Source: Thermoplasmata archaeon (GTDB lineage Archaea; Thermoplasmatota; Thermoplasmata; Methanomassiliicoccales; Methanomethylophilaceae). From it: DNA of 64,000 bases. A model generated the notes under the pieces. It was given only the letters and a program-made list of their open reading frames with translations. It did no database searches and was not told where the DNA came from. The DNA is taken from NCBI GenBank assembly GCA_015063135.1, contig SUTA01000003.1, forward strand, positions 1 to 64,000, given 5' to 3'. Both the position numbers and the translations under genes were made by a program. The stretch's first letter is position 1. Each line of letters begins with the position of its first letter. Of the stretch, positions 503-38,242 are shown piece after piece.

Positions 503-904
503 ATGCCCTTGGGAGATCCGCACGGGGGCCTCTTCGAGTACACCGACGAGGGGCTGCCCGAGACAGTTTTCGCATGCACGGTGCCGGCCAGAGACCCCTC
601 CAGGTCCGCCGCGTTCTACACGGATGTCCTTGGCATGGAGCTCCTGGGCTCCAACGGGGAGCGCGTTTTCCTGCGCAGGGGAACCTGCAACATCGTCCTC
701 GAGAGGTCCGATGCGGTCGGAATCGATACAGGCATCTATCTCGGAGTCGGCAACCCGTACGATACCCGTCGCAGGCTTATAGACGAGGGCGTGGTCTTCG
801 CAGAGCCCCCTGTGAGGACGCCTCTGGGGACCGCGACAGCCATCAGGGACGATGACGGGAACACGCTGCACCTGATCGAGACGGGTGCTGAATTCATATT
901 GCGA
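503..904 (+). CDS. VOC/glyoxalase-family protein; ends at in-frame CGA (902-904), ORF track runs to 931
   Basis: FACTVPARDPSRSAAFYTDVLGMEL...DDDGNTLHLIETG. GC hairpin 912-927 directly after CGA. Confidence 0.75.
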
Positions 905-2966: not shown

Positions 2967-3548
2967 ATGAAGGTCCTGGCCCTCAACGGCAGCCCGCGCC
3001 CCATCGGGAACACGTCGAACATCCTGCTGGAGATGCAGGACATGTTCGAGATCGAAGGCATCGAGATGGAGATCATCCACCTCTACGAGTACGAGTTCAC
3101 GAACTGCAACGTCTGCCTCACCTGCGAGATCCGCGGGGACGGGAGGTGCATGGACGAGGACGACGGGCTGAACGACATCCTGGACAGGATGAGGGCGGCG
3201 GACGCGATCCTCCTGGCGGCCCCTACCTACGCCGGGGCGTGCCCCAGCGTAATGCAGGCTTTCATGGAGAGGGCGGCCCTGGTCTTCGAGAAGGGCGACC
3301 TGGGCCTCAGGGGCAAGGTCGGAGGGTGCTTCGCCGTATGTGCCAGAGAGGGCGGGGATATGGTGTACAACCAGATGAGCAGGTTCCTCCTGAGGAACGG
3401 CATGCTCGTGTGCGGCGCCAACCCGGTGCCGATAGTCAGGGCGCTCAACTCGCCCCAGTACGCGGATGACGTCCAGGGCATGAGGGGCATAAAGGCCCTC
3501 GTGGAGGGCATGTCCAGCGCCCTCATGCGCCTGAACGGCTATTATCGA
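2967..3548 (+). CDS. NAD(P)H-dependent FMN reductase / iron-sulfur flavoprotein-like; ends at CGA 3546-3548
   Basis: MKVLALNGSPRPIGNTSNIL, CNVCLTC motif. ORF track overruns to 3677 antisense to the next gene. Confidence 0.85.
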
Positions 3549-3555
3549 ATAGGTT

Positions 3556-4278
3556 TCGGAAGAAGAAGAACCCGCAGCCCTCTGCGGAGCAGATCTTCGC
3601 CACGGCCTCCAGCCTCTCGACGGGGCCGGAGTAGCGGTGCACGGCCATCTTCCCCTCCTCGGGGAGGGCGGTCTTGAGCTTCTCGACCTCGGCCAGCAGG
3701 GCCTCGGCATCCGATGCGGGGAAAACCTTCCCGCTCTCGGCGGCCTCGGGGACGGATGCCACGATGGGGCACCCGTGCCTTGAGGCGATCTCGGGGAGGG
3801 CGCTGTTGCTGGGGCCGAAGGTCCCGATGCACCCGCGGCCCTTGTCCCAGGACAGGGGGCAATTGGCGCACATCTCGTTCATGTCGTCGAAGGACACCAT
3901 GTCCCATCCGGTCACGATGTTCTCGGGGTCGGCTTTGTCCATGGCCCTCTTCCTGTCGGCCTCGGACAGGCCCTCGAGCTCCACCCAGCCGGTGCTGACC
4001 TTCTTGGCTAGGGGCTTCAGGACCTCTATGTCGGAGTCCTTCTTCACCTTGTCCATGTAGACGGCGTCGGTCTCCTCGTTGATCCTGTTCCTCTTCAGGA
4101 ACGCGTCCCAGTCCCCGACGGCCTTCTTGGCGTCGTCCAGGGCGACGATCTCGTCGCTGATGACCAGGTCCTCCAGGCCGGCCTCGTCCAGGAGGTGCAC
4201 TTTCACCACGTTCAGTTTCAGTTCCCTGCAGGGGGCGCTCTTGGCCTCCTTCTCGCATATTCCGATGCTTATTCCCAT
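3556..4278 (-). CDS. Conserved hypothetical protein, Cys-containing; ends at CGA (3558..3556)
   Basis: MGISIGICEKEAKSAPCRELKLNVVKVHLLD...AEGCGFFFF then CGA. ORF track ends at 3523, inside the convergent flavoprotein gene. Confidence 0.7.
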
Positions 4279-4289
4279 TTCACGTCACC

Positions 4290-25807: not shown

Positions 25808-26449
25808 TCGGCTATCGGAGAAGAGCGTCCTTACGAGTTTGACGATCTCGGCGCCGGATGCAGAGTAGCCGTCCCCGCCGATCTCCTGCACCCATTCGTC
25901 GGTGCAGGGTGCGCCGCCGAAGATCGTGAGGATGTGGAGGCCGCTCTCCCTGATGACGCGGACGATATCCTTCTGCTGGTAGAGGCTGGTCGTCATGAGG
26001 GCCGACCCTCCGACAATCGAGGCGCCGTTGGCCCTGGCCGCCTCGACGAACGCATCTGGGGAGACGTCGCTGCCGAGGTCCACCACCCTGTAGCCGGCGC
26101 CGCGCAGCATGGCGCAGCAGATGTTCTTGCCGATCTCATGTATGTCGCCCTTGACGGATCCCATGATGATGACGCCGTTCAAATCGGCGTCGCCCTTCTC
26201 CATTTTAGGTTCCAGGACTTCGAGGGCGGCATCCATGGCCTTGGCGGCGGCCACGATCTGCGGGAGGAAAATCTTGCCCTCATCGAAGCGGTTGCTGATG
26301 GTCTGCATGCCCTTAGCAAGTCCGAGGTTGACGGCGTCGAAGGGCGGGATGCCGGCATCTACGGCCTTCTGGGCGCTCTCGCGCGCAAGGGCGACGTTCC
26401 CGGTCTCCACCGACGTCTGAAGATTCATCAGGGCCTCGTCTTTGGGCAT
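25808..26449 (-). CDS. Corrinoid (MtxC-like) protein without adjacent methyltransferase; ends at CGA (25810..25808)
   Basis: GDIHEIGKNICCAMLRGAGYRVVDLGSDV; 213 aa with CGA as end, same length as mtbC and mtmC. ORF track overruns to 25712. Confidence 0.85.
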
Positions 26450-31468: not shown

Positions 31469-32143
31469 ATGTCAGGGACCATAAAGGCGGTGGGGTTCGA
31501 CCTCGACGGGACTTTCCTCAAGACCCATGTCGATTATCCGAGGCTGAACGGCGCCGACCTGGAGGTGCTGGAATCCCACGGCATCCCGTGGGAGGAGATA
31601 GATTTCGGCGACTCCCCCAAGAGGCCGAGGCGCCCCATCAGGGAGTGGCTCGAGGCCAACGGGAGAGGGTCCGAGTTCCCGGAGATATCCAGGGAGATAG
31701 ACGATGTGTTCACATCCATCGAGCTGGAGTTCGTCCACGAGGCCGTGGCATTCCCCGGGAGCAAGGAGTGCATCCCCGCCATCAAGGCCAGGGGGCTGAA
31801 GGTCGGCCTCCTTACGCGCGGCTCCAGGCGCTACGCCGAGGCCGCCCTGGAGGTCAACGGTCTGTCTGGCGCTTTCGACGTCGTCATGGGCAGGGACCAT
31901 TCGGAATACGACAACGCCAAGCCGTCGCCGGTTGCGATGATGGAGTTCGCCGGGGAGCTCGGGGTCTCGCCATCGGAGGTCCTCTACGTGGGGGACAACA
32001 AGACCGATTGGATGTCCGCCAGCGGGGCCGGCGCGATGTTCGCCGGGGTGCTGTCGGGCTCCTGCAGGGAAGACGACTGGAAGGAGCTGGACCCGGACAT
32101 GCCGGTGATCCCCTACGCCGGGGATGTTCTCAGCCTCCTGCGA
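31469..32143 (+). CDS. HAD-superfamily hydrolase; ends at CGA 32141-32143
   Basis: VGFDLDGTFL, LLTRGS, KPSP, YVGDNKTDWMSA; ORF track overruns about 600 nt antisense to the RecJ-like gene. Confidence 0.85.
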
Positions 32144-33556
32144 TCGCTCCACCTGGGCGGAGACGAGGTCCTCGACGATGTCGAGGAAGCGCTCCGTGCT
32201 GCCGGGAGGTATGGTGGCCCCGGCCGCCACGCTGTGACCCCCGCCGAACCCGCCGACGAGCTCGGCAGCGGTCTTCATCACCCTGGAAAGGTCGAGCCCG
32301 CGGTCGACCAGCGACCTGTTGGCCCTTGCCGAGACCTTGATCCCATCGTCCGCCTCCGCGAAGGCGATGATCGGGAGGTCGGACCTGCATTCTGGGGTGT
32401 TCAGCATCATGCCGGCCACTATCCCCACCACCGTCTCCCTGATCTCGGTGCCGGCCTCGAAGTACTGGATGAAGCGCCTCTCCCTGATCAGGTGGTTGTT
32501 GCGGATGTACGTCATCGCGGACGAGATGTGCTTCCTGTGCTCGGCGCGGTTCCTGTCAGCGTCCGCGAGGGCCGTCGGGTCGCCGCAGCATATCCTCAGC
32601 CCGGTCTCGGCATCATCGTACCTCCCGCAGGAGTTCAGTATCGTGGCGAATTCCTTGGCATCCCTCAGGCCGGTGCCGGCGGGCTGCTTCGGGAAGGTGT
32701 ACATCTCCCCGAAGATCTTGCCCGAGTCGCCTGGGGGCATGAGTGACAGAACCGCATCGCAGATGCTTTCCTTCTCGTCCGGGGACAGGTCGTTCCAGAC
32801 GCGCAGCTTGCCGTCGCGCTTGATCGGTATGTCCAATCTGTCGACCAGGTCGGAGCAGGCGCCCGGGTTGTCGGACAGCCCCGGGATCTGGGGGTCGCTG
32901 CTGTACTGGAGCAGCTGGATGACGGGACGGGTCTCCCTACCGAACAGCCTGAGGTCCTCCTCGACCACCAGGTCGCCGTTGCCGACGGCGTCCCTCACGA
33001 TGGATTTGTTGAGGCCCACGAGCCTGGATTCCGATGTGTCCTGGAAGTCGCCAACGGCCCCGACGACCGCCAGCCAGGCGAGATCGATGTTCGTGGGGTC
33101 GACCTCCTTAGACAGTAGATAGGTCATGCCTGCGCCGCAGGCCTCGAAGGAACCGTCCATCCCGTAGCAGTGCGGGTTGATGTGGTGGATGTCCGAGAAG
33201 CTCTCCAGGGTGGTCTGCTTCCTCCTCCACTGGGGGTCCGGCACATGATGGTCGGTTATGATCACCGAGGGCCTGGTGAACCTAGACAGGTAGGCGCTGC
33301 CGAGGTCGCATATCCATACGACGTCCCTCTCCGAGGAGTTCACCATCTCGACGGTCTCGTCGGTGATCTTCTTCTGGAAAACCGTCTCCCTCTCCATTCC
33401 GAGGCGGTCGGCGGTGGTGCTCGCTATGCTTCCGGCGGATATCCCGTCGGCATCGATGTGGGTGACGATGAGGACGTCCTTGGAATCCTTCAGGAGGGCC
33501 GCCGCGGAGGCGATGTCCCTGCCCATGCGCTTGAGGTCGCCATCTGTAGCCGGCAT
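32144..33556 (-). CDS. DHH-family single-strand exonuclease, RecJ-like; ends at CGA (32146..32144)
   Basis: VLIVTHIDADGISAGSI, VIITDHHVPD, C-terminal GGFGGGHSVAAGATIP; ORF track overruns to 31472. Confidence 0.88.
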
Positions 33557-34298
33557 AATCGGTCACCAGCCTGCCATATATCTTCTCGGCGATGGTCTCG
33601 AGGTTTATCGTATCGGCGCGGTTGTACTCGGTGAGTATCTCCAGGGCGTCCTCGTCCCCGTGCCTCGCCCACTGGTGCCACAGGTGCACGGCCTCGGCTC
33701 CGTCCACGCCGATGATGTCCTCGTCCCTCGATATCCCCATCTCGACCTCCAGGTGCTTCAGGCCGCCGCTGTATCCGACCTTCCTGGAAGCGAAGCGCAG
33801 GTCGAACTGCGGCATGTCGAAGTCGATGCTGGGGAAGCTGTTGCGGAGCACTGGCACGTCGAAGCAGCTGCCGTTGAAGGTGACCAATATCTTCGTCCCG
33901 TCGAGGGCATCGGACAGGGATGCGGCATCCAGGTCGATCCCCTCCGTAAGCGTCACGGTCCGCCCGGGCCTGTGTACGGTCACCACGGTCACCAGGGCGT
34001 CCCTGCTGAGGCCGTCCGTCTCTATGTCCAGATAGGCGGCGTTGGCCTTGAAGCGGTCGAACATCCTCCAGTGCTCCCTCTTGGGCACCATGTCGCCCAG
34101 GAGGCGGGTGTCGCCGTCGTCCAGGAGCTCGGCGGCCTGCGTGAGCGCGGCGATCCCCTTCTCCCTCAGGGCGGGCTTGACGCATCCCGGGCAATCCCCG
34201 TTGAGGAAGTCGTCCCAGGTGAGAGTGCCAGCTTCCCATATGGCCATCTCCTTCTTGGCCCCGACCGACGGTATCAGCTGGAAGGTGTGCTCTATCAT
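33537..34298 (-). CDS. RNase H-like exonuclease (YprB-type); ends at CGA (33539..33537)
   Basis: AYLDIETDGLSRDALVTVVTVH, ILVTFNGSCFDVPVL, EYNRADTINLETIAEKIYGRL. Confidence 0.8.
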
Positions 34299-34378
34299 TA
34301 TGCATACCCGATATGCGCGGTGTTTGAAAAACAAGACGGTCGCTAAGTTGATTACCGCTGTCCCGCATACGGGGGCCG

Positions 34379-35101
34379 ATGCGTTCCAAGGAGATCCTGC
34401 CCGGAGTCACCATCACCAGCGACCGCTGCCTGGTCCTGGACGAGGGCCCCACCGTCGTGCTGGGGGACCTCCACCTGGGGTACGAGCGGGCGCTGGAGCA
34501 GGAGGGGATGTACGTCCCCCGCACCAACACATCCGCCATAAGGGACTCCCTCAACGAGATCATCTGCCGCTACGAGCCGTCCAGGGTGGTCCTCCTGGGG
34601 GACGTGAAGCACGACTTCAGACGGTCGGGCTACGAGGAGAAGAGGGAGGTAAGGAGCATCATCGAGCTGATAGCCGAGGCCGCGGAGGCCGTGGTCATCC
34701 GCGGGAACCACGACAACTACCTCCAGAACATCATATCGGACCTCGGCGTGCTGGCCGTGGACTACGTGGACATCATGGGCTTCAGGCTGGAGCACGGCCA
34801 CTCCGACTCCGGCGTCAGGCCCGTGATAATCGGCCACGAGCACCCGTCGGTGAGGATCCCGGGCTCCGTCGGCGGCGGGCTGAAGATCCAATGCTTCGTG
34901 CATGCCAGGGCGGACGGGGTCATCGTCCTTCCGCCGTTCAGCCCGTTCTCCTCCGGGAACGACCTCGTGGTCGATGAGAAGTGCGTCATGGCCCCGGCCC
35001 TCCGCTCGGCCGACTTCGCCTCCGCCGAACTCTACGGCGTGACCGACGTGGGGCTCATCGACCTCGGCACGTTGGCCGACCTCGAAGGCATCTCCATACG
35101 A
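34379..35101 (+). CDS. Metallophosphoesterase; ends at CGA 35099-35101
   Basis: VLGDLHLGYE, LLGDVKHDF, VIRGNHDNYL, IIGHEHPSV. Confidence 0.85.
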
Positions 35102-37531: not shown

Positions 37532-38242
37532 ATGTCGGCCATTCTCGATAAGAACAAGGAGTACGCGCAGGTCCTGTCGTCCGTCATCGGTCTCAGGTCC
37601 GAGCCCGTCGCGATCAAGCTGGTCAGGGAGGGAGAGGAGTTCCCCGCCGGATACAGCGAGCCCGAGGCGCAGATGAGCCACTGCCAGGCCGTTTTCAGGG
37701 CCAGGCACGGCGAGTGCCTCAAGATGCCCATCGCATGCCACAACTGCAAGGTCGGTACGTCAGCCCTCAACATGACTGCCACCGACGAGAAGGTCGCGTC
37801 CGGCGAGTTCCACGCCGGCATCGGCATGCACGACAGCGCGGCCGCAGCCGGGAAGATGATCTCCGAGAGGATGATCCCGTCCTTCAAGAGCAAGGGCGAG
37901 GTCGTGTGCCCCTTGAAGGACGCGGACTTCGAGCCCGACGTCGTCGCCATCATCGACATTCCCGAGCGCGTCTACTGGGTCGTCCCCCTGTCCACCGCCG
38001 AGGAGGGGGGCAGGGCCGTTTTCAGCACCTCGCCCTTCCAGTGCGCCTGCGAGGACGTGACCGCGGTGCCCATCGTCACCGGCAAGCCCAACGTGTCCCT
38101 CGGGTGCTTCGGGTGCAGGAAGAAGACGGACATGGCCGCCGACGAGCTCGCCTGCGGCATCCCATACGCCCTGATCCCGGGCTTCGTGGAGCACCTCAGG
38201 AAGTACGGAACCGGCGTCATGACCAAGGCGAAGCGCGAGCGA
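37532..38242 (+). CDS. DUF169-family protein; ends at CGA 38240-38242
   Basis: GLRSEPVAIKLVREGEEFP, SHCQAVFRARHGECL, LGCFGCRKKTDM. ORF track overruns to 38371. Confidence 0.78.

Follow-up and report, generated by a model that had tools for sequence, protein, structure and literature searches.

The known changes of a sense codon into a stop codon are confined to organelles with few genes, and a plastid case described in 2025 was called the first known outside mitochondria (PMC12574857). For archaea, a survey with Codetta, which infers amino-acid meanings only, found no changed sense codon in 2309 species (PMC8629427). In eukaryotes, ribosomes stall at the codon CGA where its tRNA is rare, and termination caused by eRF1 at rare codons is described in Neurospora (PMC6755126). 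In bacteria, the motif in the release factor gene prfB is lost in lineages with a high demand for RF2 (PMC12421855). The DNA analyzed here is a stretch of 64,000 nucleotides, referred to as the window, from positions 1 to 64,000 of contig SUTA01000003.1 of a Thermoplasmata archaeon (GCA_015063135.1). Two convergent genes of this window, encoding a HAD-family hydrolase and a DHH/DHHA1 (RecJ-like) phosphoesterase, both end on CGA, and CGA is almost certainly a translation stop codon in this archaeon, judging from orthologue-defined gene ends.

Convergent HAD and DHH genes

The palindrome CGATCG occupies positions 32141–32146 of the window. In the plus-strand frame of the HAD gene the translation reads ...DVLSLL followed by CGA, and in the minus-strand frame of the DHH gene it reads ...EDLVSAQVE followed by CGA. 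The palindrome arises because the two CGA stops on opposite strands abut at zero spacing. Under translation table 11 the HAD frame is open to 32746 and the DHH frame to 31472, giving an antisense overlap of 1.27 kb; with CGA taken as a stop the two genes abut with zero overlap. The original prediction had named these back-to-back CGA stops, with an antisense overlap of more than 1.2 kb under the standard stops and none under CGA, and both the sequence and the measured overlap agree with it.

Most DHH/RecJ-like frames of the nearest relatives have 472 codons and terminate at the position of the CGA, while the table 11 frame of this archaeon has 696 codons. C-terminal extensions in orthologues matching the read-through sequence, which would have spoken for longer proteins, were looked for: the orthologues end at the CGA position and Pfam identified no domain in the read-through part of either frame. 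It had also been proposed that relatives might carry TGATCA or another stop at this junction. Another stop does end the DHH gene of the relatives at the CGA position (TGA or TAA, mostly TGA), while TGATCA was found in none of them. The reading of CGA as the stop of both genes is therefore supported, and the junction is one case of a genome-wide phenomenon.

CGA at gene ends across the genome

The genome assembly comprises 1.86 Mb in 40 contigs, is 87% complete and includes the window in contig 18; the organism belongs to the Methanomassiliicoccales, and its relatives are rumen and gut methanogens. The sample used consists of the window and 20 further stretches, compared with a congener (G014) and a member of another genus in the same family (G033), 400 kb being taken from each; the kinship of the compared genomes was assigned from aRF1 and kinship labels. 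Among reciprocal best matches reaching the C-terminus, the codon of this archaeon at the place where the protein of the relative ends was CGA in 25/62 genes against G014 and in 14/68 against G033. With more relatives added, 158 genes had an orthologue-defined end, and 50 of these had no TAA, TAG or TGA by position +6 from that end. CGA was present at the expected position ±1 in 38 of the 50 (exactly at 0 in 29), and the next codon in this count was TCG with 7. The final count gave CGA ends in 47/168 genes of this archaeon compared with 4/417 in five relatives (Fisher p = 2e-23), the controls being G007 (1/63), G014 (2/103), G019 (0/45), G030 (1/70) and G033 (0/136). When slightly offset ends are included, the stops used are TGA (101), CGA (54), TAA (6) and TAG (2), where two of the 54 CGA ends belong to short frames that are probably spurious. 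By these orthologue-defined ends, CGA is the terminal codon of approximately 28–33% of the genes, beside TGA.

A CGA of this archaeon lies opposite the TGA of G014 in 21 aligned pairs. For several protein families the match to the model runs to its final positions immediately 5' of the CGA, namely ArgS (569/569), PheS (323/324), PheT (550/551) and PyrH (221/222), and the models of Adk (211/212), AcnA (875/876) and RtcB (961/961) are likewise matched up to it. The essential genes argS, pheS, pheT, pyrH, adk and that of the release factor aRF1, which reads RYKVS followed by CGA, thus end on CGA where the family models end. No special sequence context was found at positions -1, +4 or +5 of CGA stops relative to TGA stops.

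CGA within genes and the tRNA-Arg complement

The apparent interior CGAs in the frames of this archaeon lie 5' of start codons or in wrong frames. When conserved contexts were compared outside the genus, 26 CGAs were left in 23,943 codons; all 26 belong to a single frame that lies upstream of argS and crosses the aRF1 gene, and no gene contains one in its own reading frame. There is consequently no convincing CGA inside a true gene of this archaeon among the approximately 24,000 conserved-context codons. Apparent interior CGAs were considered as true sense codons and rejected, because they precede start codons, belong to antisense or other reading frames, or fall in rRNA. A search for one amino acid matched by CGA in conserved columns left no in-frame CGA in the genes of this archaeon, and reassignment of CGA to another amino acid was rejected on that ground. 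Across the genus, where 137,000 conserved-context codons were covered, the one recurring true-sense CGA is codon 77 of the aRF1 gene; the rest were judged by inspection to be in wrong frames, in rRNA or in one probable transposase. The transposase gene (L233, 948–2247) is from G030, a genome that otherwise avoids CGA.

Rfam identified 43 tRNAs in the genome, and after typing, the arginine anticodons are TCT, CCT, GCG and CCG only; TCG was not found among the 43 typed tRNAs of this 87%-complete genome. The congeners carry tRNA-Arg(UCG), and in several of them the gene is located between a ybhB-like gene and hypE. The ybhB–hypE interval of this archaeon, on an intact contig of 118 kb, contains neither a tRNA nor a recognizable remnant (best local score 34, compared with 94 and 142 in two congeners). 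By this typing, tRNA-Arg(UCG), the only tRNA that would read CGA, is missing from the genome. Taken together, the absence of CGA inside genes, its presence at orthologue ends and the lack of a cognate tRNA make this genome appear to have undergone a sense-to-stop reassignment.

Loss of this tRNA had seemed common in the genus from DNA and pattern searches (for example in G003, G007, G012, G013, G016, G019 and G030). This was rejected once full typing, which among the congeners apparently lacking the tRNA covered G007 and G009, recovered divergent copies in both. G007 and G019 keep the CGA at codon 77 of aRF1, and CGA does not serve as a stop in G007, G019 and G030. ARAGORN assigns an intron-containing tRNA of this archaeon and of congeners (L028, C7:41813–41917; L085; L360) to Ser(CGA). 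It may be a tRNA-Tyr, which was not otherwise found among the tRNAs of the genome.

The release factor gene of this archaeon and its relatives

One aRF1 was found in the genome, with an intact NIKS motif. Compared with about 101 aRF1 proteins of the order, it carries two substitutions shared by no relative: K65N, at a position that is Lys in 101/101 relatives, and N66H, at a position that is Asn in 94/101. The two residues are adjacent, come after the NIKS loop and correspond in the alignment to human eRF1 positions 69 and 70. The NIKS-side region of eRF1 affects stop-codon specificity. From their position it is possible, though on balance doubtful, that K65N and N66H matter for recognizing C in the first position of the codon.

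In the relatives, the aRF1 gene itself contains an in-frame CGA. Codon 77 (Arg77) is CGA in 35/35 congeners (22/22 distinct genes), and codon 24 (Arg24) is CGA in 11/11 genomes of the sister clade; the corresponding codons of this archaeon are CGC and AGG. The third positions of the aRF1 genes of the congeners are 66% identical on average, and the other codon-invariant positions carry mostly common codons. The reading frame of the relatives continues unchanged past the CGA, with no +1 frameshift. The base 5' of the codon 77 CGA is T in 22/22 distinct genes (GCT or TCT, as in L122, L290 and L301), where this archaeon has GCC; synonymous codons with another last base would be available, and this context is perhaps tuned. 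The codon 24 CGA is followed by the purine-rich GGA AGA GGC (in L169, L175, L188 and further aRF1 genes of the sister clade), a stretch that may belong to the same regulatory site. By analogy with prfB, the in-frame CGA of the relatives is somewhat more plausibly autoregulatory than not, and from the CGA ends found in four genomes we infer that aRF1 reads CGA.

Other lineages with CGA ends

GTDB loci around aRF1 and further stretches were sampled from other lineages. CGA ends were found in Methanomassiliicoccaceae archaeon COG_1 (G061, 15/60), Tb.RUG.172 (G060, 7/47) and RGIG6908 (G064, 4/35), corresponding to 11–25% of genes, and all three genomes keep tRNA-Arg(UCG). A restriction of CGA ends to genomes that have lost the tRNA was considered and rejected, as these three have both the tRNA and CGA ends. 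In G060 and G061 together, 10/27 CGA stops are followed by another CGA within four codons, compared with 2/63 TGA stops (p = 6e-5), whereas in this archaeon a second CGA follows only 3/54 CGA stops. Tandem CGAs that are frequent with the tRNA and rare without it are as expected if CGA is leaky in the presence of the tRNA and tight in its absence. Such tandem gene-end CGAs, of forms such as CGA NNN CGA, are seen in L252–L268 (G061 and G060). In an aRF1 tree built with FastTree, this archaeon, G060/G064 and G061 are in separate places, and therefore the CGA ends arose or expanded more than once. In further genomes (L125, L133, L175 and L188), CGA stands at the orthologue-defined end of single genes, which suggests low-level use elsewhere in the family.

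Proposed explanation and its alternatives

The explanation that best accounts for these data, and which is very probable as a whole, is that aRF1 terminates translation at CGA and that CGA is a pure stop in this archaeon. The single archaeal aRF1 would take CGA in the A site and release the protein as it does at UGA. That aRF1 is the reader, rather than another factor, is likely, because CGA differs from UGA in the first base only and the flanking contexts of the two stops are alike. In the ancestor, CGA would already have been read in part by aRF1, in competition with tRNA-Arg(UCG). Such partial reading would explain why the relatives keep CGA out of their genes save for the one in aRF1, where termination at the CGA would act as negative feedback. 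In the lineage of this archaeon, loss of the tRNA would have ended the competition, the CGA in aRF1 would have been replaced by CGC, and changes of TGA ends to CGA would have become harmless. For the family as a whole, we give moderate credence to a scheme in which CGA is a dual codon, the CGA in aRF1 forms a feedback loop, and lineages stand at successive stages that this genome has completed through loss of the tRNA.

The missing tRNA would also be expected if CGA were unassigned, so that ribosomes stall at it for lack of a tRNA, are rescued by aPelota/ABCE1, and the CGA ends are tolerated stalls. Ribosomes of yeast, which is without tRNA(UCG), do stall at CGA, and Dom34/Hbs1 is proposed to act there (PMC6755126). 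Stalling is nevertheless unlikely here: CGA ends a third of the genes, among them argS, pheS, pheT, adk and aRF1, a situation difficult to square with a rescue pathway from which no product is released, and the three genomes that keep the tRNA use CGA ends too. The exchange of CGA and TGA between orthologue ends, with C/U as the sole difference, would also be produced by C-to-U editing of the mRNA that turns CGA into UGA at gene ends and leaves the code standard. Against editing stand the absence of a distinguishing context at CGA ends and the abundance of CGA out of frame, and it would leave both the loss of the tRNA and the CGA in the aRF1 of relatives unaccounted for; we regard it as very improbable. 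An ordinary loss of stops, with CGA read as arginine and the proteins extended to the next TAA, TAG or TGA, is extremely improbable. The frames are open under table 11, and a tRNA for the codon is present in the three other genomes that show CGA ends, but the extensions reach hundreds of codons, run partly antisense to neighboring genes, hold more CGAs and have neither domains nor a counterpart in orthologues, and this genome avoids CGA inside genes and has no tRNA to read it. The fragmented, 87%-complete assembly might likewise suggest an assembly or sequencing artefact, which can hardly be the cause of an effect that is specific to codon and frame, is seen throughout the contigs sampled and appears again in three further assemblies.

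Several observations nonetheless weigh against termination by aRF1 at CGA as set out above. The NIKS and YxCxxxF motifs of the aRF1 look normal, and the CGA-ending genomes G060, G061 and G064 are without K65N and N66H, so these features do not in themselves show how aRF1 would accept a first-position C. In an assembly of 40 contigs at this completeness, a tRNA-Arg(UCG) elsewhere is conceivable, though the syntenic site is empty. Seven of 54 read-through genes have no CGA near the expected end, which may reflect alignment slack or true extensions, and the sample covers approximately 450 kb of 1860 kb.

Other CGA gene ends in the window

The two genes of the junction and the further predicted CGA stops of the window are listed in Table 1. 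Positions 3546–3558 form a second convergent CGA/CGA junction, with the two stops 7 nt apart.

Table 1. Predicted CGA stops and associated genes in the 64,000-nucleotide window
Feature	Position	Strand	Evidence
CGATCG, two abutting CGA stops on opposite strands	32141..32146	both	Sequence; orthologue ends coincide with it
HAD-family hydrolase, 224 aa, ends DVLSLL before CGA 32141–32143	31469..32140	+	PF00702/PF13419/PF13242 inside residues 5–213; homologues (L160, L161) end there with TGA
DHH/DHHA1 (RecJ-like) phosphoesterase, 470 aa, ends SAQVE before CGA 32146–32144	32147..33556	-	DHHA1 at residues 369–466, model matched to 101/102 at residue 466; congeneric frames mostly 472 codons
CGA stop, gene 5' of the DHH gene on the same strand (frame 33540–34406), overlaps DHH start by ~20 nt	33537..33539	-	G019 orthologue (74% identity) ends here
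CGA stop, calcineurin-like phosphoesterase gene (frame 34352–35098)	35099..35101	+	TGA ends of the G014 and G033 orthologues coincide; PF00149
CGA stop, DUF169 gene	38240..38242	+	TGA ends of the G014 and G033 orthologues coincide; PF02596 model reached to 208/209 at residue 220
CGA stop, NADPH-dependent FMN reductase gene, convergent with frame 3559–4284	3546..3548	+	G014 orthologue end; PF03358
CGA stop, gene of frame 3559–4284	3556..3558	-	G014 orthologue end (68% identity)
CGA stop, corrinoid (B12-binding) protein gene	25808..25810	-	G033 orthologue end; PF02310, PF02607
CGA stop, glyoxalase-fold gene	902..904	+	G014 orthologue end; PF00903

Comparison with known systems

A search of open-access papers, preprints not included, found no description of CGA as a stop or of a cellular genome in which a sense codon became a stop. 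We know of no report of a sense-to-stop change of this type for any non-organelle genome, and a release-factor feedback loop acting through the CGA of aRF1 would, to our knowledge, be the first in archaea. If the proposed explanation is true, this archaeon would show how a full-sized genome can gain a stop codon, with relatives apparently at intermediate stages, and the codon-capture and ambiguous-intermediate models become directly testable. There are consequences for stop-codon recognition as well, since a first-position C would then be acceptable to an eRF1-type factor. Gene calls made with table 11 in such genomes would have wrong ends, false C-terminal tails and spurious antisense overlaps.

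The closest described cases are the sense-to-stop changes of organelles, which involve UCA/UCG in Scenedesmaceae mitochondria, UUA/UUG in Marsupiomonadales mitochondria, UUA/UCA in peDinoflagellate plastids and AGA/AGG in vertebrate mitochondria. As in the archaeon, the former sense codon is found at gene ends only, the plastid case is also without a cognate tRNA, and release-factor changes near the codon-reading site have been proposed as the cause (PMC12574857). Unlike these cases, the change proposed here affects the genome of a cellular archaeon, involves a release factor of the eRF1 type with a different fold and a codon beginning with C, and leaves TGA in use. The CGA and CGG reassignments of Absconditabacteria and Firmicutes share the codon box, the rarity of the codon and the loss or change of the tRNA (PMC8629427), but there CGA or CGG becomes another amino acid. 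In Neurospora, an eRF1-type factor likewise acts at codons that are not stops, with CGA among the stalling codons (PMC6755126), although termination there is a cost of rare codons and involves no change of the code.

The in-frame CGA in the aRF1 gene of the relatives resembles the bacterial prfB gene, which encodes RF2 and is autoregulated through an in-frame UGA and a +1 frameshift: in both, a codon that the factor reads, or for aRF1 probably reads, stands early in the factor's own gene and is kept across a large clade (PMC12421855). It differs in that the codon is CGA, the factor is aRF1 and there is no shift of frame, as the tRNA would read the codon as arginine. By this analogy, the CGA of the relatives may work like the prfB site, though without the +1 frameshift it is not a member of the prfB type.
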